In this document: positions 3,444 to 31,927 of the stretch, in pieces | Numbering within the stretch: the first letter of the stretch is position 1 | Layout of the letters: each line of letters begins with the position of its first letter | Assembly (NCBI GenBank): GCA_031258155.1 | Contig: JAIRNH010000029.1 | Span: 1 to 46,868, forward strand | Length of the DNA stretch: 46,868 bases | Direction: 5' to 3' | From: Helicobacteraceae bacterium | GTDB taxonomy: Bacteria > Campylobacterota > Campylobacteria > Campylobacterales > SZUA-545 | The notes under the pieces: model-generated | Told to the model about the DNA's origin: nothing | Database searches by the model: none | The model's input: the letters and a program-made list of their open reading frames with translations, nothing else | Position numbers and translations under genes: made by a program

Positions 3444-3522
3444 ATCTAAGCAAACGCGATTCCATATTATCGCGGCGGCGTTTATGGAATAACGAATGCT
3501 TTATTTAATAGGGAGGCTTCCT

Positions 3523-6500
3523 ATGCGCTTTATTGTTTTAACGGCGGTTTTCGCGCTTTGTTCATTCGCGAACGCTCTTGTTACGCCCTTTGTGGAAAGC
3601 GAGAACGGCTACGGCGCAAAGACCTTCGGCGGCGCGTTAATAGCGTCGAAAGAGGGCAAACTCATTCACAGAATATACGCGCTAGATTCGGTCGTATCTT
3701 TTAGCGAAATCATCGGATATAAAACGCTCGAACCAAAAGAGCCGCAAGAGACGACGATCGGCTTTTTGAATAGCGATCGGCGTTTAAGCGCCTACGCGGC
3801 GCTAGAGGCTGGCGAGATCGCGCCGAACATCTCGCTCAGGCTGGAAGCAAAAAACGGCGACGTGGAGAAGCTATTTACGCTTGAAAAGGGCGCTCGCGTA
3901 GAGGATTTGAAAATCAGGGTCGAAGGAGCGCAAAAGCTGGCGGTTAATAGCGCGGGCGAGCTTGTGATCGCCACAAAAAAGGGCGACGCGCGTTTCACAA
4001 AGCCGATCGCCTATCAAAACATAGGCGCCGAGCGAAAAACGATCGAGGCGGCGTATCGGATCGCGGACGGTTATTACGGCTTTAGATTGGGCGAATACGA
4101 TAGGCGTTACGCCGTAGTTATCGATCCGCTCATGGCGGCGACCTATACGGGCGGCGCGGCGCGCGACGGGATCGACGCGATCGTTATCGATAGCGACACA
4201 AACGACGTATATGTCGCGGGTATTACCGATTCGCCCTCTATAGCTACGCTTTCGGCTTACGACGCTACGCTTGGGGCGCAACCGGACGGATTTATCGCCC
4301 GATACGACGAAAACTTGACAGCGCTTAAAGCCTTGACCTACGTAGGCGGGAACGGCGCCGATCGGATATACGGCTTGAGCTTAGCGCGAATTGGCGGCGT
4401 AAAGTATCTCTACGCCGTAGGCGAAACCGATTCGTCGGATTTAGGCGCGCCGCTTGGCGATAGCGACGGGTTTATCCTCAGGATTAGCGCCGATCTTAGC
4501 GCGTCGCCTTACGCGCCGACGCTTAAACGCGTCGGCGGCGACAACAAGGATCATCTAAGCGCCGTCGTCTATAGCGGCGGCTACGTCTATGCGGCGGGAT
4601 ATAGCGCCTCTAGCTCCGCGTTAAACGCTTCGAGCGCGTTATCGAATTACAACGCGCTCGCCGTTGCGTTTAGCCCCGATCTATCGACCGCTAGCGCCGT
4701 TATCGTCGGAACAAACGAGGCGGACAGATTTAACGCGATCGTCGCGACGCCAAACGGCGTTATCGCCGCCGGCGCGTTTGACGATAACGCCTCTATCGTT
4801 TCGTTTTCGCCCAATCTCGCGTCGCATACTTGGCATACCTTCAACGCGACGGCGGGAGCGAAAACGGAGATTTTCGCGCTAGAAACCAACGGCACGCATA
4901 TATTCGCGGGCGGGCAGAGCGATAAGGCTGGTTTGCCCGCGACGCCTTCAATCGGCGCAGCCTGCCAATATATCGGCGCCAAAGACGCTTTTATCTCCGC
5001 GATCGAGATCGCCAATCTAAACAATTTTGTCAAAACCTGCTACGGCGGAGGCTCCGATGACGATCGCGTAACCTCGCTAAAGTTTAACGACGATAACGGT
5101 TCGCTCTTTATCGGCGGGCAGACGAATAGCGCTTTTCCGTATATGCCCGCCTTTCCCTATCAAGCGACGAAAAACGCCGATTTGGACGGCTTTATCGTTC
5201 GCGCCTCGATTAGCGCTATGGAGCTAGAGAGTATCACCTATTACGGCGGGAGCGGATCGGACTCCATAAACGCGATCGCTACGCTTGGCGGCGATATTTT
5301 CGCGGCGGGCGAAACCTCTTTTGGCGCTCTAAGCCAGAGCAAAGTCAATAGCCCCGCTCGCGTAAGCGGCGCGGCGGCGGAAGGCTTTATCGCCAGATTC
5401 ACTAGCGATCTCGCCGCGAACTACGCGCAAATATCCGTCGGAGCGGTCGGCGTTAATTTTGGCAACGTGGGTTTCGGGCAGGTTAGCGCTCCTAAAGAGG
5501 TCGCGATCGTCAATAGCGGCTCGGATAACCTAACGCTCTCGTCGATTAGCTTGAGCGGCGGGCATTCGACGCAATTTGCGCTAGATCGCTATTTGTGCGA
5601 GGGGGTAACGACGTTAGCCCCTTTGCGTAGCTGCTCGATCAAGCTGATATTCGCGCCGTATTCGACGTTTGGCAACTTAACGACCGCGCTGGCGATTGTC
5701 TCTAGTTTAGGAACCTCTAACGTCGAGATTAACGCCACCTCGATCGCCCTGTCCGACGCGGTTTTGGCGACTTACTTTGGCGGCGATCTTTCGCTAAACG
5801 CCGAATGGGATTTTGGCGGCGCGCCGCAAGGGGGAGCTTCCGCGACCGTCGTTTTGACGCTGAAAAATATCGGAACGCCCCCCGTAACGATCAACTCGAT
5901 CGCGCTTGGAGATACGACCAACTTTGGCGTCGTATCCAACTCGTGCGCCAACGGCGCTATTCTGCCTACGCAGAGCGACTGCGGCGTAACGCTTCGATTT
6001 ACCCCGATTGCGGGATCGGATAGCGGGATTAGCTACGAAAGCGAACTGAATATATCCTCTAGCGATATGCACGCGCCAAATAGAACCCTGAGACTCAAAG
6101 GCGTAGGCAAAACGGGGCTTCAGATAACGCCAGCCGCGCTTAACTTCGGATCGCTCGCCGTTTCGCTAAGCAAAGAGTTAAACCTGACAATCAAAAATAT
6201 GTATTCCGACGGCGCGGCGCTAACCTTCTCGTCGTCCGATCAGAACTTTACGATCGGCGGCGGTAGTTGCGCCTCCCCTCTCGCCTCGCAAGCCGAATGC
6301 AATATATCGATCGCCTTCGCGCCCATAGCGACGGGGACGATTAACGGCGCGCTAATCATAAACGATATAGCTACGGGTCATACCCCTTCTTACTCGATCG
6401 CGCTTAACGGCGTTGGAACGCCGGAGCCATACGGCGTTATCGATCTAAACGGCTTGCCGCTTCTTACGATAATCGACGCGACCGCGCTAGGGACGTTCAA

Positions 6501-7665
6501 AAGCGGCGTTATTACCTTGCGCAACGCGGGTTACGGCGAACTTGGCGTTTCGCTAACGCCAAACGGCGGGGATAGCTCCTCTTTCTCTATTGTCGATTCA
6601 AATTGCGCCGCGCCTATAGCGATCGGCGGTTACTGCAATTTCCGCGTCGCTTTCGCGGCGAGCGCGATTGGCTTGTATGAAACTAATATCTCTATCGTCA
6701 ATACCGATCCCTCGCATCCGCAGGAGGTCAATCTAAGCGTTCGCGGCGAGGCGAGTTTAGCCGCGCCGCTCGCGATCGCGGGCTATTCGGCGGTTATTTC
6801 GGGGCTAACCGTAAGTTTTGACGCGAACGCGACGGGCGGCGTAACGCCGTATAGCTATCTGTGGAGTTTTTCGGACGGTATAACGAGCTTGGTGAAAAAC
6901 CCCGCGCACACCTTCGCTTCGGTCGGCGAAAAAGAGGTAAATATCACCATAACGGACGCTGTCGGCTCAAGTCTGACGCGGGAGATTAACGTTACGCTAA
7001 GCGCCGCTATGGGCGTAAGCGCCGCGCCCTCCGTTAATCTAGGAACGGCGCCGCTTAGCGTAAATTATACGGGGACGATTACGGGAGGGAGCGCGCCTTG
7101 GACGCTGGTATGGGATTTTGGCGACGGATCGAGCGCGCTAACGCAAACAACTAACCTGCCGAGCTTTAGCGCGTCGCATACGTTTAGCGCCGCGGGAACG
7201 TATTTAGCCTCGCTTAGCGTAACCTCCGCCAGCGGCGAAAGCCTGTCCGCGCCGCTGGCGAGCGTCAGGGCGCTGCAAGAGGGCGGCGGTTACTATATCG
7301 CGGGCGATTCGAGAAAATCGGGCGAGGACGGCGGCTACTGCTTTATCGCGACCGCCGCGTATGGATCGTATCTCTCCGACGAGGTTCAGGCGTTGCGCGA
7401 CTTTCGCGATCGGTGGCTTTTGAGCGGCAAAGTTCCTTTCGGCGCGGAGTTTGTGGAGTTTTACTACCGCGTTAGCCCGCCGATCGCCGATTTTATCAGA
7501 GAACGCGAGGGTTTGCGGACGCTGACGCGAGCGTTTTTAACGCCGATCGTATTTGCGGCGAAATATCCGTTTTTGTTTTTGATCGTTTGCGCGGCGATCG
7601 CGATATTGTTGTCCGTTCGCCGCCGCGACGTCTCTTTTTTAACGAATAAACGCGAACGTCTTTAA
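3523..7665 (+). CDS. Large surface protein: SBBP beta-propeller, ASH domains, PKD domains, CFI-box C-terminus
   Basis: The 1380-residue protein starts at ATG 3523, chosen because GGGAGG lies six bases upstream and a signal peptide starts there ([18 protein letters not shown]). Residues about 200-640 carry SBBP-like beta-propeller repeats (patterns such as [14 protein letters not shown] and VYVAGITD). About 640-1080 has several Ig-like ASH/choice-of-anchor-D repeats ([17 protein letters not shown]). About 1080-1250 has two PKD domains (WSFSDG, WDFGDGS). The end has the CFI-box element ([10 protein letters not shown], Cys near 1273), with FRDRWLL and [16 protein letters not shown], then a membrane helix (about 1345-1366) and an Arg-rich tail. 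It is probably anchored at the cell envelope and exposed; the ligand is unknown. Confidence 0.8.
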
Positions 7666-19670: not shown

Positions 19671-20549
19671 ATGTCGATTCTAAAGAAATGCCTAAAATCA
19701 ATCAAACGAACGTTAAACTACGCGCTGGGCAAGCATTGCGCGCGAAAGCTTGAGCGCACTTTCTCCGTAAATAGTTTTTCCGTCGTCGATCCAAGTTCGA
19801 GAGCGGTTGTATCGCTGACCAGCTATGGCGATCGGATTAAAACGGTTCACTTGACCATCGAGTCAATCGCATGCGGATCGGTTTTGCCAAAACGGTTAAT
19901 TTTGTGGATAGACGAAGAAGAGACGTTGCGCGACTTGCCGTCGCCCTTAAAGCGTTTGCAAGATTGCGGACTAGAGATACTCGGTTGCGAAAACTATGGA
20001 TCTTACACGAAATTTTATCCGTTTGTGATCAGTCAAGATCTTAGTTTGCCGCTTGTTACCGCGGACGACGATATTTTCTATCCCAAAGATTGGCTTAAAA
20101 ACCTCGTCGTCGCGCACGTAAAAAATCCAGACGCGATTTATTGCTATCGGGCGCGCCGCATTTCATTCGATTCGGATGGCTTTGCGCCTTATAAAAGTTG
20201 GCGGCTTATATATAAAAGCGATAAACCAAGCGCGCTTAATTTTGCAACCGGCGTGAGCGGCGTAATATACCCGCCGCGGTTTTTACGGATATTAAAAGAA
20301 GCCGGCGACGGTTTTTTGCAAACGTGCCCTAAAGGCGACGACATATGGCTTCATAAGCAGGCGATCGGCGCGGAATTTAGGATTGCCGTAATAGAGGGAA
20401 TGCGCAAGATAATCTATATTCCGGGGACGCAACGGATCATGCTTACTAGTTATAATTACCATCAAGACGGCAACGATTTACAGATTCGCGCAACCTATGA
20501 AAAAGCCGATACAACTCTCCTTCGAGAAGCTTTGGCAAACGGCGATTAG
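19671..20549 (+). CDS. GT-A-type glycosyltransferase, specificity unknown
   Basis: The 292-residue protein has AVVSLTSYGDRIKTVHLTIES at the start of its catalytic region, KRLILWIDEEETL, then LPLVTADDDIFYPKDWL with the DDD metal site. This resembles capsule and LOS glycosyltransferases that start at SLTSYG/SFPSR-type motifs. AAGGAA precedes the ATG. It is alone on the plus strand between two minus-strand operons. Its TAG overlaps the stop of the convergent rhamnosyltransferase-like gene (TTAG at 20546-20549). The N-terminal 35 residues are basic and may attach it to the membrane. Confidence 0.75.
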   Translation: MSILKKCLKSIKRTLNYALGKHCARKLERTFSVNSFSVVDPSSRAVVSLTSYGDRIKTVHLTIESIACGSVLPKRLILWIDEEETLRDLPSPLKRLQDCGLEILGCENYGSYTKFYPFVISQDLSLPLVTADDDIFYPKDWLKNLVVAHVKNPDAIYCYRARRISFDSDGFAPYKSWRLIYKSDKPSALNFATGVSGVIYPPRFLRILKEAGDGFLQTCPKGDDIWLHKQAIGAEFRIAVIEGMRKIIYIPGTQRIMLTSYNYHQDGNDLQIRATYEKADTTLLREALANGD

Positions 20550-21397
20550 CTTCGCCTAATTAAACGCTGAAAAAAGCGGCTAATAAAGCATATGCGTTTG
20601 CCGGTAGGTTTTTTGAGTTTATATATGTTCTTTGCAACTATGCTAAGCCGCATCGTTTCCCACAGCATAGCTATATACGATCGGCTTATAACGAACGAAA
20701 GGCCGTAATCGGATAGATTAACGCCATGCGCCGCATACCCTCTAACGCTGTTGGCGACGTTGGAGCCGTGAATATATTGCAAGGCGTATGGAATCTCGTT
20801 TAGTTCGGTCGCGTCCGTATATGCGGTATGCGGTTTATCAAAGAGTGAAATATGCAAAGGCGTTTTCGCCTTTTCTATTACTGATATAAAAGGAGAGTTC
20901 CGGTAGCGATATTTAGAAATTACAGTTTTTGGTTTGTCTCTAAAACATAACAACTTTGAAAATGTAAAGGCGCGATATTCCTGTGCGGAAAAACAGTTTT
21001 GCAACGCTTCGATCGCCTTTTTATGATATGCGTCGTCGCTGTCGATACGAGAGCTGATAATAAAACTATCGTTAGTTTTTAGCAAATTTAACGCCAATGT
21101 GTCGGATTTTTCGATCACGTCCGCGTTTGATACGACATAAATGGGGAAATAGCGTCTTTGCCATCTTAGCGCCTCCCGTTCGTTTTCTTCAATCAACCAT
21201 TGCGGCGATCTTGCGTCAAAAAAGACGCAAATATAGAAATTTTGATTTGTCTGGTTTTCAAGCGAAGGCAAGGTAATACGCTTAAATATATCTAAGCGGT
21301 ATTTAAGCCAACTATCGTCTATCGTAATGCCAGTTTTTCCATACGCTATCGGCACGCTAAAACGGATAAAAATAATATGAATAAACGTCGGGCTCAT
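20546..21397 (-). CDS. Putative rhamnosyltransferase-family protein
   Basis: The 283-residue protein has HIIFIRFSVPIAYGKTG, RLDIFKRITLPSLENQTNQN, FFDARSPQWL and FIISSRIDSDDAYHKKAIE. This series recalls the family called putative rhamnosyl transferase (PF11316). It is the last gene of the long minus-strand operon and follows the aminotransferase by ATGA overlap, next to the dTDP-6-deoxysugar genes, so it may transfer the sugar that they make. The family name does not prove rhamnose as donor. Confidence 0.72.
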   Translation of the reverse strand: MSPTFIHIIFIRFSVPIAYGKTGITIDDSWLKYRLDIFKRITLPSLENQTNQNFYICVFFDARSPQWLIEENEREALRWQRRYFPIYVVSNADVIEKSDTLALNLLKTNDSFIISSRIDSDDAYHKKAIEALQNCFSAQEYRAFTFSKLLCFRDKPKTVISKYRYRNSPFISVIEKAKTPLHISLFDKPHTAYTDATELNEIPYALQYIHGSNVANSVRGYAAHGVNLSDYGLSFVISRSYIAMLWETMRLSIVAKNIYKLKKPTGKRICFISRFFQRLIRRS

Positions 21398-22512
21398 ATC
21401 GGCGGCCTTGCAACGCGCGTTATACGCTCGCTTATATCGATTATATCGCGTTCTTCAAGCCCTAAGTGAAGCGGTAAACTAAGGATCCGATCTGAATAGT
21501 AGCGAACATTTTTCAACCTTTCGCCTTTAAACGGAGCGTACAACGTATTGTCTTTATAGTGTACTCCGCAAAATATCCCCTCTTTAGAGAGCGTATCAAT
21601 AACTTCGTTTCTATTCTCAACGACGACTTGAAAAATATGTCTTGAACTTTCGCGCTTATGATTGATAAACGGTATTTTGCCAATCAAGTTTAACTCGTAT
21701 AGCGCGGCCAGTTTTCTTCTATACGCATTATCTTCGTCAAGATACTTTAGCCCTACTATTCCCATAGCGGCAATAATTGAATTACCATGATATTTATAAC
21801 CGACTTCGTCAACTTCGTAATCCCATTTATACGAGCCTTCGCTACTGCGCGCGAAGGTATCTTTATTAATGCCAAGCCAACTCAACTTTCTGGCGGCTTC
21901 GTCCATTTTTTTGTCAGTAAAACAGATCATCCCGCTATCGGCGGTAGGTAAATTTTTTACCGCTTGAAAAGAGAAAACCGCAACATCGACGTTATAACCG
22001 ACATGTCGATTGTCGATCTTTGATCCAGACATGTGCGCCGCGTCCAGAATAATTTTTAACCCGCGCTCTCTCGCAATGTTTATAATCTCTTCTAAATTAG
22101 CGCCATTTCCGCCAATTCCCACAAAAACAATAGCTTTTGTTTTCGGAGTGATTTTTTCTAAGACGCTGGCGGGATCCAAATTAAGCGAGCTATCAATATC
22201 CGCAAAGATTGGTCGCATGTTCTCATACAAGATCGCGTGGTTTGTAGATACAAAAGTAAGCGGGGTCGATATAATCTCGTCCCCATTTTTCCAGCCAAAT
22301 TTTTCTTTAAGAATTTTGACCGCTAGATGAAGCCCTACTGTTGCGCTATTAAGAAAATGAGCGTTTGGAAGAGCGGAATATTCCTTCCATTTTTCCTCAA
22401 ATATCGTCGTTTTGAAACCCATGCCGCTCCAGCCAATTTCTAAACATTCCCTAATTTCGCTCAAACACTCTTCTACGCGAAAACGAGGCTTTAAAACTTG
22501 AATTTTTTTCAT
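21394..22512 (-). CDS. DegT/DnrJ/EryC1/StrS sugar aminotransferase
   Basis: The 372-residue PLP enzyme has the family features NSATVGLHLAVKIL (about 55-68), the cofactor Asp in IILDAAH (D157) and the Schiff-base Lys in SFQAVKNLPTADSG (K186). These enzymes transfer an amino group from glutamate to a keto-sugar nucleotide. It follows rmlB by a four-base overlap and occupies the place where rmlD would complete dTDP-rhamnose, so a dTDP-4-amino-4,6-dideoxyhexose is the likely product. The exact stereochemistry, and whether an acetyltransferase elsewhere acts next, cannot be told. Confidence 0.85.
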   Translation of the reverse strand: MKKIQVLKPRFRVEECLSEIRECLEIGWSGMGFKTTIFEEKWKEYSALPNAHFLNSATVGLHLAVKILKEKFGWKNGDEIISTPLTFVSTNHAILYENMRPIFADIDSSLNLDPASVLEKITPKTKAIVFVGIGGNGANLEEIINIARERGLKIILDAAHMSGSKIDNRHVGYNVDVAVFSFQAVKNLPTADSGMICFTDKKMDEAARKLSWLGINKDTFARSSEGSYKWDYEVDEVGYKYHGNSIIAAMGIVGLKYLDEDNAYRRKLAALYELNLIGKIPFINHKRESSRHIFQVVVENRNEVIDTLSKEGIFCGVHYKDNTLYAPFKGERLKNVRYYSDRILSLPLHLGLEERDIIDISERITRVARPPI

Positions 22513-23537
22513 GCTTGACCTTTATCGTATTTTTTTAAATACCAATTTACCGTTTTTCCAAGAGCGTTTTCGAAATTTTCTTTTGCTCTCCAGCCAAGTC
22601 GCGTTTCGATTTTTGCCGCGTCGATCGCATAACGACGATCGTGCCCTAAGCGATCCTTTACAAACGTTATTTGATCCTTGTAGCTACCGCTTGGTTTTGG
22701 GCGCGCTATATCTAAAATTTCGCATATTTTACGAGCGATCTCTAGGTTCTCACGCTCGTTTTTGCCGCCGATATTGTAGCTTTCTCCGGCGGCGCCTTTA
22801 TGAAACGCCAGATCAATCCCCTCGCAATGATCGGTTACAAATAGCCAATCTCGTATATTTTTGCCGTCGCCATAAATAGGGATAGGTTGAGCGTTTAACG
22901 CGGAACGAATAATGGTTGGTATCAGTTTTTCTCGATGCTGTTTTGGTCCGAAATTGTTGGAACAGTTGGTAACAACGGTATTCAAATTATACGTATGGAA
23001 ATAGCTACGCACAATCATATCTGAAGAGGCTTTGCTCGCGCTATAAGGACTAGTAGGAGCATAGGGTGACTTTTCGCTAAACAGCCCGCCTTTACCAAGC
23101 GATCCGTAAACTTCGTCGGTGCTAATATGACAAAAGCGATTTGCCTCGCCGCCGTTATTAAACCAATAGTTTTTTGCAACCTCGATAAGATTAAACGTTC
23201 CAAGCACGTTGGTTTTAATAAAAACATTAGGCGATTCAATTGAGCTATCGACGTGGCTTTCGGCGGCAAAATGAATTACGCCTTGTATATCGTAACGGGC
23301 GAATATATCCGATAACAGCGATTGATCGCAAATATCGCCCCGCACAAATATGTGCCTTGGATTGTTCGCCACTTCAGATAGATGTTCTATATTGCCCGCA
23401 TAGGTAAGCTTGTCTAGATTCACTATTTGATAGTTGGGATACCGCTTTATAAAATAAGGTATAAAGTTAGAACCGATAAATCCCGCTCCTCCCGTTATAA
23501 GCAACGTTGTTTTTGCGTTAAAATTTCGCTTACTCAT
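22509..23537 (-). CDS. rfbB: dTDP-glucose 4,6-dehydratase
   Basis: The 342-residue short-chain dehydrogenase-fold enzyme has the NAD motif TGGAGFIGSNF, the active-site segment HISTDEVYGSLG and YSASKAS with the catalytic YxxxK. It also has NCSNNFGPKQHREKLIP, which is typical of RmlB. It converts dTDP-glucose to dTDP-4-keto-6-deoxyglucose. It is coupled to rmlC upstream and to the aminotransferase downstream by ATGA-type overlaps. Confidence 0.93.
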   Translation of the reverse strand: MSKRNFNAKTTLLITGGAGFIGSNFIPYFIKRYPNYQIVNLDKLTYAGNIEHLSEVANNPRHIFVRGDICDQSLLSDIFARYDIQGVIHFAAESHVDSSIESPNVFIKTNVLGTFNLIEVAKNYWFNNGGEANRFCHISTDEVYGSLGKGGLFSEKSPYAPTSPYSASKASSDMIVRSYFHTYNLNTVVTNCSNNFGPKQHREKLIPTIIRSALNAQPIPIYGDGKNIRDWLFVTDHCEGIDLAFHKGAAGESYNIGGKNERENLEIARKICEILDIARPKPSGSYKDQITFVKDRLGHDRRYAIDAAKIETRLGWRAKENFENALGKTVNWYLKKYDKGQA

Positions 23538-24121
23538 ATCGCGCTCCGCGATTTCTTAGCAAGAGCGCCGTTGCCGATAAACGTTTGCGCGTCTTTTAAT
23601 AACGGAGACGCTAAATCTTTTTCGGAAAGAACGAGCTTTTTTCGCGGCAAAACCCAATCAATTCCTAACGCTGGATCGTCGAAAATAACGCCCCGCTCAT
23701 GCTCTTTGGAGTATGGAAGATCGACTTTATATTGAACTATCGCGTAATCCGATAGAACGACGAACCCATGCGCGAAGCCTTGCGGGATAAACAGTTGGCG
23801 TTTGTTTTCGTCTGAAAGCGTAATCGAAATATGCGCGCCAAACGTAGAGCTTGCGGCGCGAATATCGACGGCGACGTCAAGTATTTTACCCGCTACAACC
23901 CTTACTAATTTGCTTTGCGCAAACGGAGGCAGTTGATAGTGAAGCCCGCGCAAAACGCCAAAAACGCTTTTTGATTCATTGTCTTGAATAAAACGCGCGT
24001 CGCGAATGTTTTTCAAAAACCAATCCTCGCGGAAACTCTCCATAAAATATCCGCGACGATCATTATGAAGCGTAGGCTCTATGATAACCGCGTCGCTTAT
24101 ATTAGTTTTGACGAGCTTCAT
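23534..24121 (-). CDS. rfbC: dTDP-4-dehydrorhamnose 3,5-epimerase
   Basis: The 195-residue cupin enzyme has [32 protein letters not shown] with the catalytic His, then [16 protein letters not shown]. It epimerises C3 and C5 of the keto-sugar from RmlB. Its presence implies an L-configured 6-deoxy sugar, although a 3- or 5-only epimerase is possible in some relatives. It overlaps rfbA and rfbB by four bases each. Confidence 0.92.
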
Positions 24122-24999
24122 TTAGATTCTTTGGCAAGGCGCGCTAGATATTGTCCGTAACTGTTTTTGGCAAGCGGTTTAGCGAGCTCGAGTAGTTTTT
24201 CTTTGGAGACGTACCCCTTCAAAAACGCAATCTCTTCCAAACACGCCACCTTTAGCCCTTGTCGCTTTTCGATAGTTTCGATAAAAGCGCTCGCTTCCAG
24301 CAAGGTTTCGTGAGTGCCTGCGTCTAGCCAAGCCATACCGCGCCCAAGCAACTCGATTCTCAACCGTTTTTGCTGCAAATAAGCGTCTATAATATCGACT
24401 ATTTCTAGTTCGCCTCGCGCGCTTGGTTTAAGCGTTTTGGCGATTTGAACGCACTGGCTAGTAAAAAAGTAGAGACCCGGAACGACAAAATTGCTTTTTG
24501 GCTTCAAAGGTTTTTCTTCTATGCCGATCGCATTTGCCTTGTCGTCGAGCTCAATTACGCCGTAGCGTTCAGGATCGGCGACGCGGTAACCAAATATAAC
24601 CGCTTTTTGCTCGTCGCAAACTATTTTAACGACTTTTTGCAACGTCTGCTCGAATGCGTCGCCGTGAAAAACGTTGTCGCCCAACGCCAAACAAACATCG
24701 TCGCGTCCTATAAACTCTTCGCCGATAATAAACGCTTGCGCCAGCCCTTCCGGATTAGGCTGAACGGCATAGGAGATTTTCAATCCAAAATCGCCGCCGT
24801 CTCCCAATAACGATTGAAACGCCGCCTGGTCCCGCGGTAACGAAATAATCAAAATCTCTCTCAAACCCGCGAGCATAAGGGTTGAAAGCGGATAGTAGAT
24901 CATAGGTTTATCGTAGATCGGAAGCAGTTGCTTGCTAAGCGCTTTAGTAATTGGATACAGCCTAGAGCCGCTACCTCCCGCCAAAACTATAGCCTTCAT
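24118..24999 (-). CDS. rfbA: Glucose-1-phosphate thymidylyltransferase
   Basis: The 293-residue enzyme makes dTDP-glucose. It starts [16 protein letters not shown] and has [19 protein letters not shown], then [14 protein letters not shown], as in RmlA. The ATG at 24999 overlaps the TGA of the upstream ligase gene (24996-24998); the frame is open 13 codons further, but only this start gives the family N-terminus. Because its start overlaps the stop of the phase-variable ligase gene, its translation may fall when that gene is out of frame. Confidence 0.94.
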
Positions 25000-26369
25000 T
25001 TTTGATCTTTCCATTGCGGTTTTATAGTAATTACGCACGCGAACAGTAATACGAACGTAATAATTCTGCTAAAGTCAACTAAAGTAGAGCCCGGAATGCT
25101 TTGGATAAGTAGTTCTATTAACAGCGCGCCGCAAAACATCTTGGCAAATGCGCCTACGGCGAACGCTTCGCGAATGATTGCAAAAAACATTGCCAAGAGC
25201 AGCGTCATGCCTACTATGCCATGCCGAGCTAAAGTCTCAACGAACTGATTATGTAAATGGACGCTCATCTTACGATCTTCTCCGACTATGGGATCAAGCG
25301 GATATATTAGATCTTTTCGTTCTTCGTATAATACGTCCCCAAGATTTTTTTGAGCGCCCGTTCCCGCGCCAAAAAATGGGCGCTTCGACAAAACCGCTAT
25401 GCCAAGCCGCCACATTGCGACGCGAGCGCCGATGCTGCCTCTATAATTATTGTTTATCATCGTTTCCATGTCGTCGTTGGTGTTCTCCAGTCGCCTTTCA
25501 ACGGAGGAAGAGAGATTGTACGCCAAAACAACGATTGAGGCGGTTAAAACGATAGCGCCTAACGCGGAGTAAAGAATTTTATACGCAAAGCGAACGTTTA
25601 GTGTCTGAAAAAAGATTAGAGCGCACGACGCAAAGAACGCGCATGTAAACGACACGTAGGTGGTGCGCGACGGCAGGGCGAACATAACTATAACCGATAG
25701 AACAAACCAGCCAACGCAATAAGCGCACGCTAACTTACGTTTATTTATAAAAGCGCGCGCCGATAAAAATAGCGCGATAAGAGCCGATATCTCAATTAGC
25801 GGAGCGAGTCTGCCGTAATGCAGACCGGGGAAATATTGCATATTGGCTCCCGTATCAAGACCTGCGGCGATTTTATACGGCTCTATAATGCCCAAGCGCA
25901 TAAAAAATGTCGCTAAAACCGCCAACTGAAACCCTGCTAAAACCGCTATCAAAGTCCATTTATCAAAAGGTTTGCTTTCGTTAAAATAAAGTATCAATAA
26001 GGGCAGTATCAGCCAAGGGATCGAGAAGCGAAATTCGCGCCAACCAGAATAGTAATTGTCGCTCCACAAAATCGCTAGTCCAATATATCCGACATAAAGC
26101 AAACAGGCAACGCCTATGGGATTACAATAGACGCTTTTCAGGCGTTTTGCGTATAGCGCCAATAATAAGACAAACGCAACCGTTCCAGCGCTTGTACTGA
26201 TTCGGTGGTTAAGAATCGCAAAAACCGCCGTCAAGACGATAAAGGCAAAAATTATTCGCTCTTTTTGCGAGAATACAAAATCAAGGAGTTTCAATTCACC
26301 CCCCCCCCCCCCCCGTTTTAGTAGAGCGCGGTTAAAATCTAAGTTAAATATGTTTGCGACGGACGCCAT
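24996..26369 (-). CDS. O-antigen ligase/polymerase-type membrane protein, phase variable
   Basis: The 457-residue protein has about 10-12 hydrophobic segments and a large loop with the region [21 protein letters not shown] followed by FFGAGTG and [18 protein letters not shown]. This is the O-antigen ligase (WaaL) / polymerase (Wzy) / O-oligosaccharyltransferase signature. It should act at the periplasmic face of the inner membrane. A run of 16 G on the coding strand covers codons 19-24 (R19, G20-G24); the frame is open in this sequence (ON). AAGGAAATAAA precedes the ATG. Ligase and polymerase cannot be told apart with certainty here. Confidence 0.85.
26299..26314 (-). repeat. Poly-G tract (16 G on the coding strand), contingency switch
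   Basis: Sixteen C bases on the plus strand lie 56-71 bases inside the ligase/polymerase gene. With 16 G the frame stays open. With 17, codon GGG is followed at once by TGA; with 15, the reading is GTG AAT TGA. Either neighbour length therefore stops translation near residue 25. Runs of this kind in Campylobacter change length at high rate. Confidence 0.92.
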
Positions 26370-26389
26370 TTTATTTCCTTATAGTAACG

Positions 26390-27163
26390 CTAGACGTTAT
26401 CATAGCGCTTGGTACCTTGTTCGATTTCCCAGACAAAAGCGTATTTCAAAAAGATATAAACGCCTTTGCTAAACGCCGCAAATAAACCTTGTATCCCGTC
26501 CAGAAAGCCTAAGCGAAAGATATAGGATTTCGTTACGCCCCAAAACGGGTTAAACAATAGTTTAATTAACGAAAAACGTTTGCCTTTTTGCGCGTAAGAT
26601 TCGGCTGCTAAACGCGCATAAACAATCAGCCGCTTCCAGTGATCGCGCAAATCTTTATAGGAGTAGTGTATTAGATCGCCCTTTAGTTTGGCGGTTTTGC
26701 CATTGATTGTTAACCTATCGTGCGGATTGTAGCCGCCCCATTTGGGATTTGCGTCGCGCCTTACAAGTCTTAGGTGGCGATCGGGACGCCACATATAGTT
26801 TAGCGTTTTGCCAAGATATACGCTCTTTCGGCTAATTATATAACCCTCCGCGTCGTCGTTCGCAATCGCTTGTTCGATCGATTTAATAAGCTCGTCGCTA
26901 ACAACCTCGTCCGCGTCGATCGACAATATCCATTTGCCGCCGCATTTTTCCAGCGCGGAATTTTTCTGCTCGATATGCCCCTTCCAATCCTCGTCAAATA
27001 CCTTAGCGCCGTAACTTAGCGCGATCTCTCTTGTGCGATCGCTCGAATGCGAATCCACGACGACAATTTCGTTCGCGATCGTTTTAACTGCCTCTAGCGT
27101 TCGCGGCAGATTGTCCTCTTCGTTAAACGTAATAATCGCCGCGCTTAAAAGTTTATCGTTCAT
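26390..27163 (-). CDS. Glycosyltransferase family 2, WaaE/LgtF-like LPS core enzyme
   Basis: The 257-residue GT-A enzyme has AAIITFNEEDNLPRTLEAVK, IVVVDSHSSDRT and WILSIDADEVVS with the DAD metal site. It then has RPDRHLRLVRRDANPKWGG and LKGDLIHYSYKDLRDH, which are WaaE/LgtF-type beta-1,4-glucosyltransferase features. LgtF adds glucose to heptose I in Campylobacter. Amphipathic C-terminal helices suggest membrane association. It overlaps the upstream GT4 by four bases and lies 20 bases before the phase-variable gene. Confidence 0.85.
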   Translation of the reverse strand: MNDKLLSAAIITFNEEDNLPRTLEAVKTIANEIVVVDSHSSDRTREIALSYGAKVFDEDWKGHIEQKNSALEKCGGKWILSIDADEVVSDELIKSIEQAIANDDAEGYIISRKSVYLGKTLNYMWRPDRHLRLVRRDANPKWGGYNPHDRLTINGKTAKLKGDLIHYSYKDLRDHWKRLIVYARLAAESYAQKGKRFSLIKLLFNPFWGVTKSYIFRLGFLDGIQGLFAAFSKGVYIFLKYAFVWEIEQGTKRYDNV

Positions 27164-28197
27164 TTTGCCGCCGCCAGATACGCGCTTAAAAACGCTTCGT
27201 CGCTAAAAACGCGGATATGTTTATCGTGATCCGTAATCTTTTGGGCAAGCGCTTTGGCGTCGTTTGGCGCGACTAGATTATCCTTTGGCGCTATTTCGCT
27301 CAAAGCGCCGACCGTCGTAGCGATTAAAGGAACGCCGATCGACATAATTTCAAAAGCGACGCGGCAGATCGCCTCGCTGCCAATAGAAGCCGCGACTCCA
27401 ACGTCAAAGGCGCTTATACAAGCGGCGACGTCCGAGCGAAAACCCGTAATAAACGCCGCGTTTGTTAAGCCTTGATCGTTAATATATTTTTGCAGATCGG
27501 ATATATCCAGATCGGCGCTATCGGTAACTAGCAAAAGTTTATAGCGCTCGTCGCTTTGACGCAAAAGCGCTAGCGCGTCGATTAGATATTTATGTCCTTT
27601 AACCTCGCTGTAACGACCGACTAGTCCCGCCACTATATCGCCCTCGCTAAAGCCAAACTCGGATCGAACGCGATCGCGTCCCGCTCGATCGAAGCGGAAT
27701 TTATTCGTATCGACGCCGCCGTATATCGCATCGATCTTATTAAGCGGCGTTTTTAACCGATCGGTAAAAAATAGTTTAATATATTCGCCGCTAACAATAA
27801 TGCGATCGGCGCACCTATTGTAAAAAAAACGATTGACGAAATTCGCTTTAGGCATACGCTGATCGCCTCTAACGCGCAGTAGTTTCCAGCGCGCGCCAAA
27901 AAAACGCTTTAGCGCCAAAAACCAGAACAGCTCCCCTCGATGAGCGGTTAGAATATCGGGCGCAAAATCGCGTAGAAATCTGTTTAACCGAAGCGCGGCG
28001 GCGATCGGATTTGCGGCGTTAAAATAGTCCTCGTAGGTTTTTATATTCATCTCTTTTGCTTTTTTCGCCGTTTGCGTGTTTGGCAAAACGCCCGCGATAA
28101 CCTCGAAACCCGCCGCTTGCAACAATCGGCAAAGGTTTAGCGCATACCACGCCGTCGCGTTATACCAGCGGACGTTAATAAGATGAAAAAATCTCAT
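27160..28197 (-). CDS. Glycosyltransferase family 4
   Basis: The 345-residue GT-B enzyme has an N-terminal acceptor domain (FFHLINVRWYNATAWYALNL). Its C-terminal half has GLVGRYSEVKGHKYLIDAL and ISAFDVGVAASIGSEAICRVAFEIM with PLIATTVGALSEI, a typical retaining GT4 pattern. Its ATG follows the TAG of the sulfatase-fold gene directly with no gap. The sugar is unknown; position suggests core or O-chain synthesis. Confidence 0.85.
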   Translation of the reverse strand: MRFFHLINVRWYNATAWYALNLCRLLQAAGFEVIAGVLPNTQTAKKAKEMNIKTYEDYFNAANPIAAALRLNRFLRDFAPDILTAHRGELFWFLALKRFFGARWKLLRVRGDQRMPKANFVNRFFYNRCADRIIVSGEYIKLFFTDRLKTPLNKIDAIYGGVDTNKFRFDRAGRDRVRSEFGFSEGDIVAGLVGRYSEVKGHKYLIDALALLRQSDERYKLLLVTDSADLDISDLQKYINDQGLTNAAFITGFRSDVAACISAFDVGVAASIGSEAICRVAFEIMSIGVPLIATTVGALSEIAPKDNLVAPNDAKALAQKITDHDKHIRVFSDEAFLSAYLAAAK

Positions 28198-30015
28198 CTA
28201 CTTATAAAACTTTCGATTTTCGTTCATAACGTCTAGGATACTTTGGCTGTGATCGCTTAAAACCGAAGCGTCTAAAGGCTTATAACTATTGGTATCAAAC
28301 GCGTGCGCGCCGTTTATCGGATCGGGGTGCGCCGAGAATACCAGCGTGCGATTATTTTCAACAATCGCGTTAAAATTCCAGTTGCCGATAACCGCGTATC
28401 GACGCTCTTTTGAGGGATAGAGCAGATCGTCGCCGTTGGCGTAATCTTCGGGCGGATTTTGAATGCCAAGCCAGCGCATAGCGGCGGGGATAAAATCGGC
28501 GTGGCTCGTTAGATAATCGATCTCGTCGGGCGCGACGTTGGGCAGACGCATAAAAAAAATCGGCTTTGTCTGCTGAACGCTAAAGGCGTGATTGTGTCCA
28601 AAACCGCCGCTTTCGTAAAACTCTTCGCCGTGATCGGCGGTAACGATAATTTTTGTGCGATCGTAAGCTCCGTTCGCCTTTAGTTTTTCTATCGCTTGCG
28701 CGATTAAAGTATCGTCGTAATAGATCGCGTTTTTATATTGATTAAATAATATATCGCGCCCGCTCGCGTCGATTGTCAGATAGTTTTTATCGCCGTCGTC
28801 GTCGGGCTGAAACTTGCGGTGCGTAGAGGGGTAGCTAAACTGGTGCGGCGCGTCGTAAAAAATAAACGCAAAAAACGGCTCGGACATATTTTGATCAAGC
28901 CACTCTAAAACCTTTTCGTTCATAGCGCGATCTCTTTCCCAAGACTCGCCTTCAAAACGATCGATAATTTTGTCGTTGATCGTAGCAAACGCGGTGCGGC
29001 GAAACTCAGGCCAATTAAGATCGCTGGCGGCGAAAATCCTTATATCAAAACCGCGATATGTTAGCGCGTCAAATAAAACGCTTTGGCGTTGCGCGTTTAG
29101 AAACGCAAACCAATAGGGCGCGTTAAGCCCGTAAAAAAACGAGAATACGCCAAAACGGGTGGCGTTGCCGCCGCTAAAGTGGTTGTTAAACGCGATCGAT
29201 TCGCGCTTTAGCGCGTTCATGGCGGGAGCGCTCTCTTCGTCAATCATATCCCATCTTACCGCGTCCATCATAATAACCATAATGTTTTCGCGCTCGTATT
29301 GATCGCTAAAGCGAAGCGGATTTTTCGGATAATCAAGTTGCGATCTAGAGTTATCGCCTAAGACGGCGATCGTTCTTGGCACGGGTTCCACGCCAAAATA
29401 TTTTTTAGCGAACCTAGTAAATGTGAGCGGCTGATAGTATGGAATTACGCGCAGTTTGTCTAAAATTTCCGTTTTTGAATAGAGATCGGCAAAGCCTACG
29501 ACCGCTTTATCGATAAGCGCTATTAGAATAACTGCGGGGATTAGATAGCGGTTGATTTTTTTATTCAGTTTTCTAGCGTCGTTATCTTTCGGCAACATAT
29601 AGTATAACAGCGATTGAAAAGCCGCGATCAACGCGGCGAGAACGGCTAATAAAATATAAGGATAAACGCCTAGATCAATATTTGTTAGCGCGGCGGGCGA
29701 AAAGGCGATATTTAAGATCATAGCGTTTATGTGAGTATGGTAGATACGATAGATAAAAAAGTCTATAATCAGCAGTAACTCAAAGATTGTAAAAACCGCC
29801 CCCGCTACCATAAATCCCGCGCGACGAAAAACGCCGAACAACGCGCAGACAAGCCACAATACGACGAAAAACATAAACGCCGTCGATAGCGCGGCAAGCG
29901 TCGAGAGGCACAGCGCGAGCGCGTCGAAATCTTTCGCGAGCAGTAAAAACGCGACAAACAAAACGGAAATAAACAGCAGATTGGCTTTTGCGAATAGGGC
30001 TAACCGCGCGTTCAT
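28198..30015 (-). CDS. YejM/LapC-like inner-membrane sulfatase-fold protein
   Basis: The 605-residue protein has five or so N-terminal membrane segments (to about residue 190) and a periplasmic alkaline-phosphatase/sulfatase-fold domain. The domain has NIMVIMMDAVRWDMI, the Thr in HFSGGNATRFGVF, FYDAPHQFSYP and VTADHGEEFYES with metal ligands. The order and SGGNATR segment resemble YejM (PbgA/LapC). In E. coli, YejM senses LPS and tunes LpxC turnover. A sulfatase-fold phosphoethanolamine or glycerol-phosphate transferase is the alternative. It sits in the LPS operon, second gene. Confidence 0.72.
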   Translation of the reverse strand: MNARLALFAKANLLFISVLFVAFLLLAKDFDALALCLSTLAALSTAFMFFVVLWLVCALFGVFRRAGFMVAGAVFTIFELLLIIDFFIYRIYHTHINAMILNIAFSPAALTNIDLGVYPYILLAVLAALIAAFQSLLYYMLPKDNDARKLNKKINRYLIPAVILIALIDKAVVGFADLYSKTEILDKLRVIPYYQPLTFTRFAKKYFGVEPVPRTIAVLGDNSRSQLDYPKNPLRFSDQYERENIMVIMMDAVRWDMIDEESAPAMNALKRESIAFNNHFSGGNATRFGVFSFFYGLNAPYWFAFLNAQRQSVLFDALTYRGFDIRIFAASDLNWPEFRRTAFATINDKIIDRFEGESWERDRAMNEKVLEWLDQNMSEPFFAFIFYDAPHQFSYPSTHRKFQPDDDGDKNYLTIDASGRDILFNQYKNAIYYDDTLIAQAIEKLKANGAYDRTKIIVTADHGEEFYESGGFGHNHAFSVQQTKPIFFMRLPNVAPDEIDYLTSHADFIPAAMRWLGIQNPPEDYANGDDLLYPSKERRYAVIGNWNFNAIVENNRTLVFSAHPDPINGAHAFDTNSYKPLDASVLSDHSQSILDVMNENRKFYK

Positions 30016-30019
30016 ATCG

Positions 30020-31927
30020 CTATTCTACCGCGCCGAGGCTGTGAAGGCGCTTTTGGTAAAGTAAGTTAGGCAGCAGCAGCCTAGCTTGCGCGTCGCGCAG
30101 ACGCTCTTCGTCAAGCGCCCGTTCGAGCGCCGTATCCTCCAAAACGCGCCGATATTCGCCGTTTTCGTCGGGCGCAAAATCCGCCCGATTGACATAGCTT
30201 CCGTTCTCGTCGAGCGCCGCCTGCGTAATAACGCCGTTTGGGCGCAAAATTGTCGCTATTTCGCCGTCGAAATAGGCAAACTCCAAGCCGTATTGCATAA
30301 CCGCGCCGCCGCCGCGATCGTCTAACAGATTACGTCCGACCAACGGGTGCGGGCGATCGTCGCCAATTAGCGCTAAGAGCGTGGGAAGCAGATCGATTTG
30401 AGAGGCGATCGCGTCGTTTTTCGCCGCGCTAACGCCTTTGCCCACAAAAAGCGCGGGGATATGGTAGGCTTTAAGCGGCGCGAACAGATCGCCGCCGCGC
30501 ACTTTGATCGTGTGATCGGCGACGACTAAAAAGATCGTGTTTTTATAGTATGGTTCTTTTTTCGCCGCTTTGAAAAACTCGCCAAGCGCGTAATCGGCGA
30601 AAAGCGCCGCGTTCTCTTGCGTCGCGGCGGGGGAGTTATACGGCTTGATAAAACCTTCGGGATAATCGAAGGGCAGATGAGACGAGAGCGTCAAGATCGC
30701 GGCGCAAAACGGCTCTTTCGCGCGCGAAAATTCGCGGTTTGCCGCCGCAAAAACGCTTAGATCGTCGCCGCCCCACCTGCCGTCGTAGCCCTCGCCGCGC
30801 GCAAAATAGGAGCGGATCGCAAACCCGTTGGCGCCTAAAAAGCGGCTCATATTGTCGAAATTCGCGTCGCCGCCGTAGTAAAACTCGCACCTATAGCCAA
30901 GCGGCGCAAGGTGAGAGGCGATCGTCCAAAAGTCGTTTTGCGCTTTGGGCAGTTTGGGAACGAGCGCGCCGACGATCGGCGAAAAACCCGCGAAAACCGC
31001 CTCCACGCCGCGATTGGTTCGCGTCCCCGTCGCGTATAGATTGGCAAACAGCAAACCCTCTTCGCCGAGCGCGTCGAAATTGGGCGTTAGCGCTAGACCG
31101 CCAAGCGCGCCCACAAACTCCGCGCCCATACTCTCCCACAGGATAATAACTATGTTGGGCAAATCTTGCGGCGTTTTGCCGCTAAAAACGCGCGCGCCAA
31201 AACCGGTTCTCGCGAAAATTTCCTCTTCGCTCATCGTTCCGTAACCGCTTAGATCAACCTCTCCTCTTAACTGATACAGCGCGTAAAGAGCCGAATAGGT
31301 TCCGTTAGAGGCGATCTCGTTAAGCTGTTGAGAGGCGCTAAACGTCGCCGTTCCGAGATTTGCCGCCGACATTCCAACGCTCGATCGCGCGCCAAGTAGC
31401 AGACACGCGATTATAAACGGCGCCGCGATCAGGCGCGTTTTTAGCGGCGTTTCGCGCGCTTTGATCGAACCCGTTTTATAGCCCAAGAACGCCGCCATGA
31501 TCGTTAATAAAACGCCGATCGCGGTTAAAACTGGATAGGCGAAGATCAACATATAAAATATCTCTTTTGGGCGATCTAGGTAATCAAAAAATAGGTGATT
31601 TGGACGCAAGCCGTATTGATCGAAAAATCCGATTGACACGATCTCGAAAAAAGCCAATAAAGCCGCCGCGAACGCCAGATAAAAACGATTTAGCGCCGTA
31701 ACCTTGCGATCAAAAAGAAGCGTCCATATAACGGGGAAAAACAGCAGGGCGCAAAGGACGATCGTATCCATTCTAGCGCCGATTATAAAGAGCTTAATAA
31801 GATCGCCGCTCGCCGCGTCGTCAGGCGCGTAGAACGCGGCGAGCGCGACTCTGAAAACGGCGAAAACAGTCAAAGAGACCAAGTAAAACAACGCGAAGGG
31901 TTTTAATAAAGCCGATAGGTTTCGCAC
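30020..31927 (-). CDS. LTA synthase-family envelope phosphotransferase
   Basis: The 635-residue protein has five membrane segments in the first ~195 residues and a periplasmic sulfatase-fold domain. The domain has NIVIILWESMGAEFVGALGG, the nucleophile Thr region TGTRTNRGVEAVFAGF, LTLSSHLPFDYPE and FLVVADHTIKVRGGDLF. These enzymes move phosphoglycerol or phosphoethanolamine from phospholipid to a glycan. In a Gram-negative bacterium the target is more likely LPS core or periplasmic glucan than lipoteichoic acid. The start is GTG with GGAG five bases upstream. It leads the ten-gene operon that ends at 20546. Confidence 0.82.
   Translation of the reverse strand: MRNLSALLKPFALFYLVSLTVFAVFRVALAAFYAPDDAASGDLIKLFIIGARMDTIVLCALLFFPVIWTLLFDRKVTALNRFYLAFAAALLAFFEIVSIGFFDQYGLRPNHLFFDYLDRPKEIFYMLIFAYPVLTAIGVLLTIMAAFLGYKTGSIKARETPLKTRLIAAPFIIACLLLGARSSVGMSAANLGTATFSASQQLNEIASNGTYSALYALYQLRGEVDLSGYGTMSEEEIFARTGFGARVFSGKTPQDLPNIVIILWESMGAEFVGALGGLALTPNFDALGEEGLLFANLYATGTRTNRGVEAVFAGFSPIVGALVPKLPKAQNDFWTIASHLAPLGYRCEFYYGGDANFDNMSRFLGANGFAIRSYFARGEGYDGRWGGDDLSVFAAANREFSRAKEPFCAAILTLSSHLPFDYPEGFIKPYNSPAATQENAALFADYALGEFFKAAKKEPYYKNTIFLVVADHTIKVRGGDLFAPLKAYHIPALFVGKGVSAAKNDAIASQIDLLPTLLALIGDDRPHPLVGRNLLDDRGGGAVMQYGLEFAYFDGEIATILRPNGVITQAALDENGSYVNRADFAPDENGEYRRVLEDTALERALDEERLRDAQARLLLPNLLYQKRLHSLGAVE

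Follow-up and report, generated by a model that had tools for sequence, protein, structure and literature searches.

Does a long run of G near the start of an O-antigen ligase gene switch that gene on and off, and what would such a switch do to the cell surface? The initial annotation of the window (the whole 46.9 kb stretch of DNA that was analyzed) proposed a poly-G switch in codons 19-24 of a gene for a WaaL- or Wzy-like membrane protein, and the 16 G are indeed in those codons (Table 1). As assembled, the frame is open (ON), and the translation across the tract reads ...K-R-G-G-G-G-G-E-L.... We rewrote the tract in silico with 12-20 G. With 13, 16, or 19 G, the frame remains open and encodes 456-458 amino acids. 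With 12, 14, 15, 17, 18, or 20 G, there is a stop after 23-26 residues, so the neighboring tract lengths cut the ligase protein short. The rewriting also reproduced the two frames that had been described for the nearest lengths (GTG AAT TGA at 15 G, and a TGA straight after the tract at 17 G), and its stops agree with the earlier placement of both near residue 25.

The length of this tract, which lies within the ligase reading frame, is well above chance. Under Markov models of the window of order 1-3, the expected number of G or C runs of at least 16 is 1e-7 to 3e-7 per window, and the second-longest run of G or C in the window is just 7 nucleotides. A caveat is that the length of 16 was read from a draft assembly of 71 contigs and could be wrong by at least one nucleotide. 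There is one genome per species available, and the tract's length is known from a single assembly. We also sought length variants within the sample by using duplicated tract loci (the contig pairs C34/C55, C4/C26, and C11/C51), and found none. These pairs were rejected as alleles of one locus: their similarity of 93-96% extends over no more than about 200 bp, which makes them paralogues or the ends of repeats.

Table 1. Features of the ligase gene and its operon, with positions in the window.
Feature	Position	Strand	Basis
G16 homopolymer	26299..26314	(-) (C16 on +)	sequence; codons 19-24 of the ORF at 24996-26369(-)
AGGA Shine-Dalgarno sequence, 6 nt before the ATG at 26369	26376..26379	(-)	sequence; anti-SD duplex
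Non-conserved N-terminal extension, 18 whole codons before the tract	26316..26369	(-)	alignment
In-frame TTG, codon 26	26292..26294	(-)	sequence; G-run upstream as SD-like sequence
Wzy_C / WaaL-like O-antigen ligase, 457 aa, ON at 16 G	24996..26369	(-)	PF04932, 7tpg match, alignment
Two sulfatase-fold membrane proteins, head of operon (one weakly YejM/LapC-like)	28198..31927	(-)	profile matches
GT2 and GT4 glycosyltransferases, just upstream of the ligase	26390..28197	(-)	profile matches
rfbA/rmlA, ATG overlapping the ligase stop (ATGA)	24118..24999	(-)	TIGR01207, 457 bits
rmlC-like, rmlB-like, DegT aminotransferase, PF11316 rhamnosyltransferase-like	20546..24121	(-)	downstream of rfbA

We then examined the product of the gene. 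PF04932 (Wzy_C) is the sole Pfam domain matched (E = 7.5e-18), and hydropathy indicates about 10 transmembrane segments, as in a polytopic membrane protein. When we compared the protein to the PDB with phmmer, the only significant match was to WaaL (7tpg/7tpj; E = 3e-5, residues 80-397). The identity is low, and the N-terminal poly-Gly extension is found only in the present protein, but the HxHN motif of 7tpg aligns with the ligase. In an alignment with nine homologues from the Campylobacterales, Arg235, Ser312, Arg316, and His373 are invariant, and the Arg/His set among these is essential in WaaL. (An AlphaFold model from the single sequence was poor, with a pLDDT of 44.) We detected one Wzy_C gene in this genome, namely the ligase. 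A scan of genome contigs with the ligase as the query found no relative, and a similar scan with PurL gave no close named organism (the best match, at 68%, was a Campylobacterota MAG). Because WaaL is the only significant match in the PDB, the Arg/His residues are invariant, and no second Wzy_C gene was detected in the genome, we favor a WaaL-type O-antigen ligase over a polymerase as the predicted product. The earlier description of a WaaL/Wzy-like membrane protein is borne out by the domain, the hydropathy, and the match to WaaL. In six genomes from the same genus, we did not find a Wzy_C gene, and none of the 24 loci with Wzy_C matches from other genomes (some of which are overlapping records) has a G-tract. 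So, conservation can neither support nor deny the switch.

The ligase gene sits in the middle of an operon in an LPS locus. The order on the minus strand is two sulfatase-fold membrane proteins, GT4, GT2, the ligase, rmlA, rmlC-like, rmlB-like, DegT, and PF11316; heptosyltransferases, KDO-type genes, and further glycosyltransferases flank the genes of the operon. A search for a Wzx flippase (PF01943), as a route for exporting O-chains, did not find one. From the ligase through the last downstream gene, there is a chain of 4-nt overlaps. In particular, the ATG of rfbA (24999-24997) overlaps the TGA of the ligase (24998-24996), which confirms the earlier observation that rfbA starts inside the ligase stop codon. 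The Shine-Dalgarno sequence of rfbA itself is weak (-3.3 kcal/mol, versus -6.2 kcal/mol for the ligase). Given this weak sequence and the overlap, coupling of rfbA to the ligase is plausible, as is a drop in the supply of rfbA when the ligase is OFF.

The GT4/GT2 pair is kept in genomes of the same genus. These genomes lack the ligase, however, and have other genes at that position. The ligase and the rml block (19671-26369 in the window) have a GC content of 43-45%, versus 49-53% around them, which suggests that the cassette of the ligase and the dTDP-sugar genes was acquired later. Elsewhere in the window, at 3496-7665 on the plus strand, there is a gene for a 1389-residue protein with choice-of-anchor D domains and a CFI-box C-terminus. 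The window also contains 158 copies of CGATCG and 27 copies of GCGATCGC (HIP1-like) in its 46.9 kb, both more than seems likely by chance.

How does the tract compare to others in the genome? The draft genome (1.94 Mb in 71 contigs; 97% complete) contains 51 G-tracts of at least 10 nucleotides, just 7 with a length of 8, and only one A-tract that reaches 10 or more. So, the long G-tracts form a class of their own rather than the upper end of the chance runs. Their modal length is about 14-15. The tract-bearing genes encode TonB-dependent receptors, AT3 and AT3-SGNH acyltransferases, FkbM/TylF methyltransferases, GT2s, a subtilase, an RCC1-repeat protein, and a DUF4910/DUF2172 protein. Among the genes with interior tracts, we counted about 9 that are ON and 11 that are OFF by frame, a mix that random switching would be expected to produce. 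Neither MutS1 (MutS_I, the mismatch-binding domain) nor MutL had a match in the 97% complete draft, and the controls were detected. Such a set of tracts without detectable MutS1 or MutL is the signature of a contingency system based on simple-sequence repeats. Tracts of at least 10 are also found in all six of the other genomes from the genus (24-52 per genome) and in one sister genus (21-33). No such tracts occur in five other genera of the family, and the number is 0-1 in most other genera of the order; exceptions in the order include f14/g20 (13-56 tracts) and f11 (5-12).

Some individual tracts deserve mention. In two genomes of the same genus, a sulfatase-fold, EptA-like gene in the LPS locus bears a tract at the same loop, close to residue 130: a 19-C tract on its coding strand in G001 (L163:10201-10219) and an 18-G tract on its coding strand in G004 (L165:79-96). 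The orthologue in G003 has no tract. The opposite polarity at one site suggests that the two tracts arose independently. Four paralogous TonB-dependent receptors (L027, L029, L022, and L050, on contigs C11, C17, C1, and C51) share the sequence around a G-tract near the 5' end; some are ON and others are OFF, and contig C51 breaks at the tract. A DUF4910/DUF2172 gene is interrupted by poly-C on the coding strand (L034:3143-3155) and is in the OFF frame; this domain is also that of the phase-variable Cj1295. A 15-G tract (L051:3006-3020) either precedes the gene for a TetR-family regulator or lies at its start, so a whole regulon may be phase-variable. Finally, contigs C5, C48, and C52 end in long runs of G (as many as 72) or in junk sequence of mixed G, and these ends are probably artefacts of sequencing or assembly.

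We think it quite likely that the G16 is a slipped-strand phase-variation tract in a WaaL-like ligase gene, and that the ON or OFF state of the ligase sets the attachment of O-chains. The tract would be a hypermutable simple-sequence repeat at the 5' end of the coding sequence. During replication, slipped-strand mispairing would add or remove one G, and because MutS1 and MutL were not detectable, the slips would probably go unrepaired. At 16 G (or at 13 or 19), the ligase would be made and would move lipid-linked O-chains to the lipid A-core. At other lengths, translation would stop at residue 23-26, and the ligase would be lost or strongly reduced. OFF cells would then have LPS with only the core, or with unligated chains, so that some cells probably display O-chains and others do not. 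We infer that the tract varies in length; the ligase's function, the LPS phenotypes of ON and OFF cells, and the reduced expression of rfbA and the dTDP-sugar genes in the OFF state are predictions from sequence. The initial annotation had read the tract as a Campylobacter-style switch, and this agrees with the frame logic, with WaaL as the only significant PDB match, with the mix of ON and OFF tracts across the genome, with the absence of detectable MutS1 and MutL, and with the kinship to the Campylobacterales.

Could the tract instead be inert, or its length an artefact of assembly? Homopolymers are error-prone, and some contigs of this assembly end in runs of 26-72 G that look like artefacts. 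But the G16 is in the interior of its contig with unique flanking sequences, dozens of other interior tracts (with a mode of about 14-15) lie in plausible contingency genes, and the same class of tract is present in the six other genomes of the genus. We consider this explanation very improbable. Another concern is what is being switched. PF04932 takes in ligases, polymerases, and PglL-type enzymes, and there is a weak match to TIGR03097, below the cut-off. If the product were a Wzy-type O-antigen polymerase or a protein O-oligosaccharyltransferase, then the switch would alter chain length or protein glycosylation. This seems unlikely: Pfam finds PF04932 alone, with no PglL-specific domain beside it, the gene is located amid LPS-core genes, and both the uniqueness of the Wzy_C gene and the match to WaaL point to a ligase.

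A different question is whether the OFF state is fully off. Distant homologues begin only after the region of the tract, so that the first 25 or so residues of the ligase are an extension, and a functional protein could start downstream of the tract. (No N-terminal extension of this kind is shared ahead of the other tracts in the genome.) The in-frame TTG at codon 26 is a candidate start. The G-run upstream of it forms an anti-SD duplex of -11.7 kcal/mol, compared to -6.2 kcal/mol for the initial ATG, and the OFF-frame stops fall at or beside it: at 15 G, the TGA overlaps the TTG (as TTGA), and at 17 G, the TGA lies one base before it. Given these stops and the strong SD-like run, the OFF state may be leaky. 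In a leaky or graded switch, ribosomes that had stopped, or new ones, would start at this TTG and make a shortened but intact ligase, whose conserved core begins after the tract, and tract length would tune the amount. However, TTG is a weak start codon, the spacing from the tract to the TTG is just 4 nt, and the layout is not common to other tracts of the genome. Also, the duplex at the upstream ATG is around the top 5% of windows, and with its AGGA this ATG suggests that the tract lies downstream of the real start. A leaky or graded switch thus appears quite unlikely. More doubtful still is a fuller version, in which the G-tract would serve both as a frameshift switch and as the Shine-Dalgarno sequence of the internal TTG start, giving graded O-antigen ligation by two isoforms, with the supply of rfbA changing alongside.

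An ON/OFF switch of the ligase has parallels in known systems. As in the phasomes of Campylobacter jejuni and C. upsaliensis, which belong to the same order of bacteria, poly-G tracts lie in reading frames for surface glycans, with a mix of ON and OFF states and no functional mismatch repair (PMC6321876, PMC8355987, PMC539331). With G/C tracts and no functional mismatch repair, C. jejuni acquires indels at 1e-4 to 1.6e-3 per division (PMC8355987). The most common tract lengths in Campylobacter are 9-10 nucleotides (PMC6321876), and tracts of 13-15 are rare. Here, the mode is about 14-15 and the ligase tract has 16, so this genome differs in degree by its long tracts. The present genome also differs in its GC content, which is about 50%, and in that the gene switched is an O-antigen ligase. 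The PhasomeIt text has no occurrence of "O-antigen," and the only "ligase" in it is MurD.

In Vibrio cholerae O1, there are poly-A tracts in wbeL and manA, which are involved in precursor synthesis; such tracts are not known in the ligase gene. There too, slippage at homopolymers governs the display of O-antigen (PMC3441752). In Helicobacter pylori, frameshifts at homopolymers also affect LPS genes, but it is the fucosyltransferases that switch; waaL is reported to be highly conserved (PMC6892558). Because deletion of waaL truncates the LPS of H. pylori, and the mutants lose O-antigen (PMC6892558), loss of the ligase should leave LPS with only the core. We found no report of a phase-variable O-antigen ligase that is switched by slippage in the literature searched (subscription journals were not covered).

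Overall, the G16 is a real tract in a WaaL-like ligase gene, and it probably functions as a contingency tract. The mechanism is known and the instance is new; the step that it targets, terminal ligation, is unusual. If so, then one slip is enough to switch the final step in the assembly of LPS, and the entire O-chain could be lost from the surface in one event, instead of one sugar being altered. This would affect phage adsorption, host recognition, and serology. More broadly, these genomes document a large phasome of long G-tracts (with a mode of 14-15) in a lineage of the Campylobacterales that has no close named relative in the collection searched, and so offer a case for studying why tract lengths settle at other values here than in C. 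jejuni.
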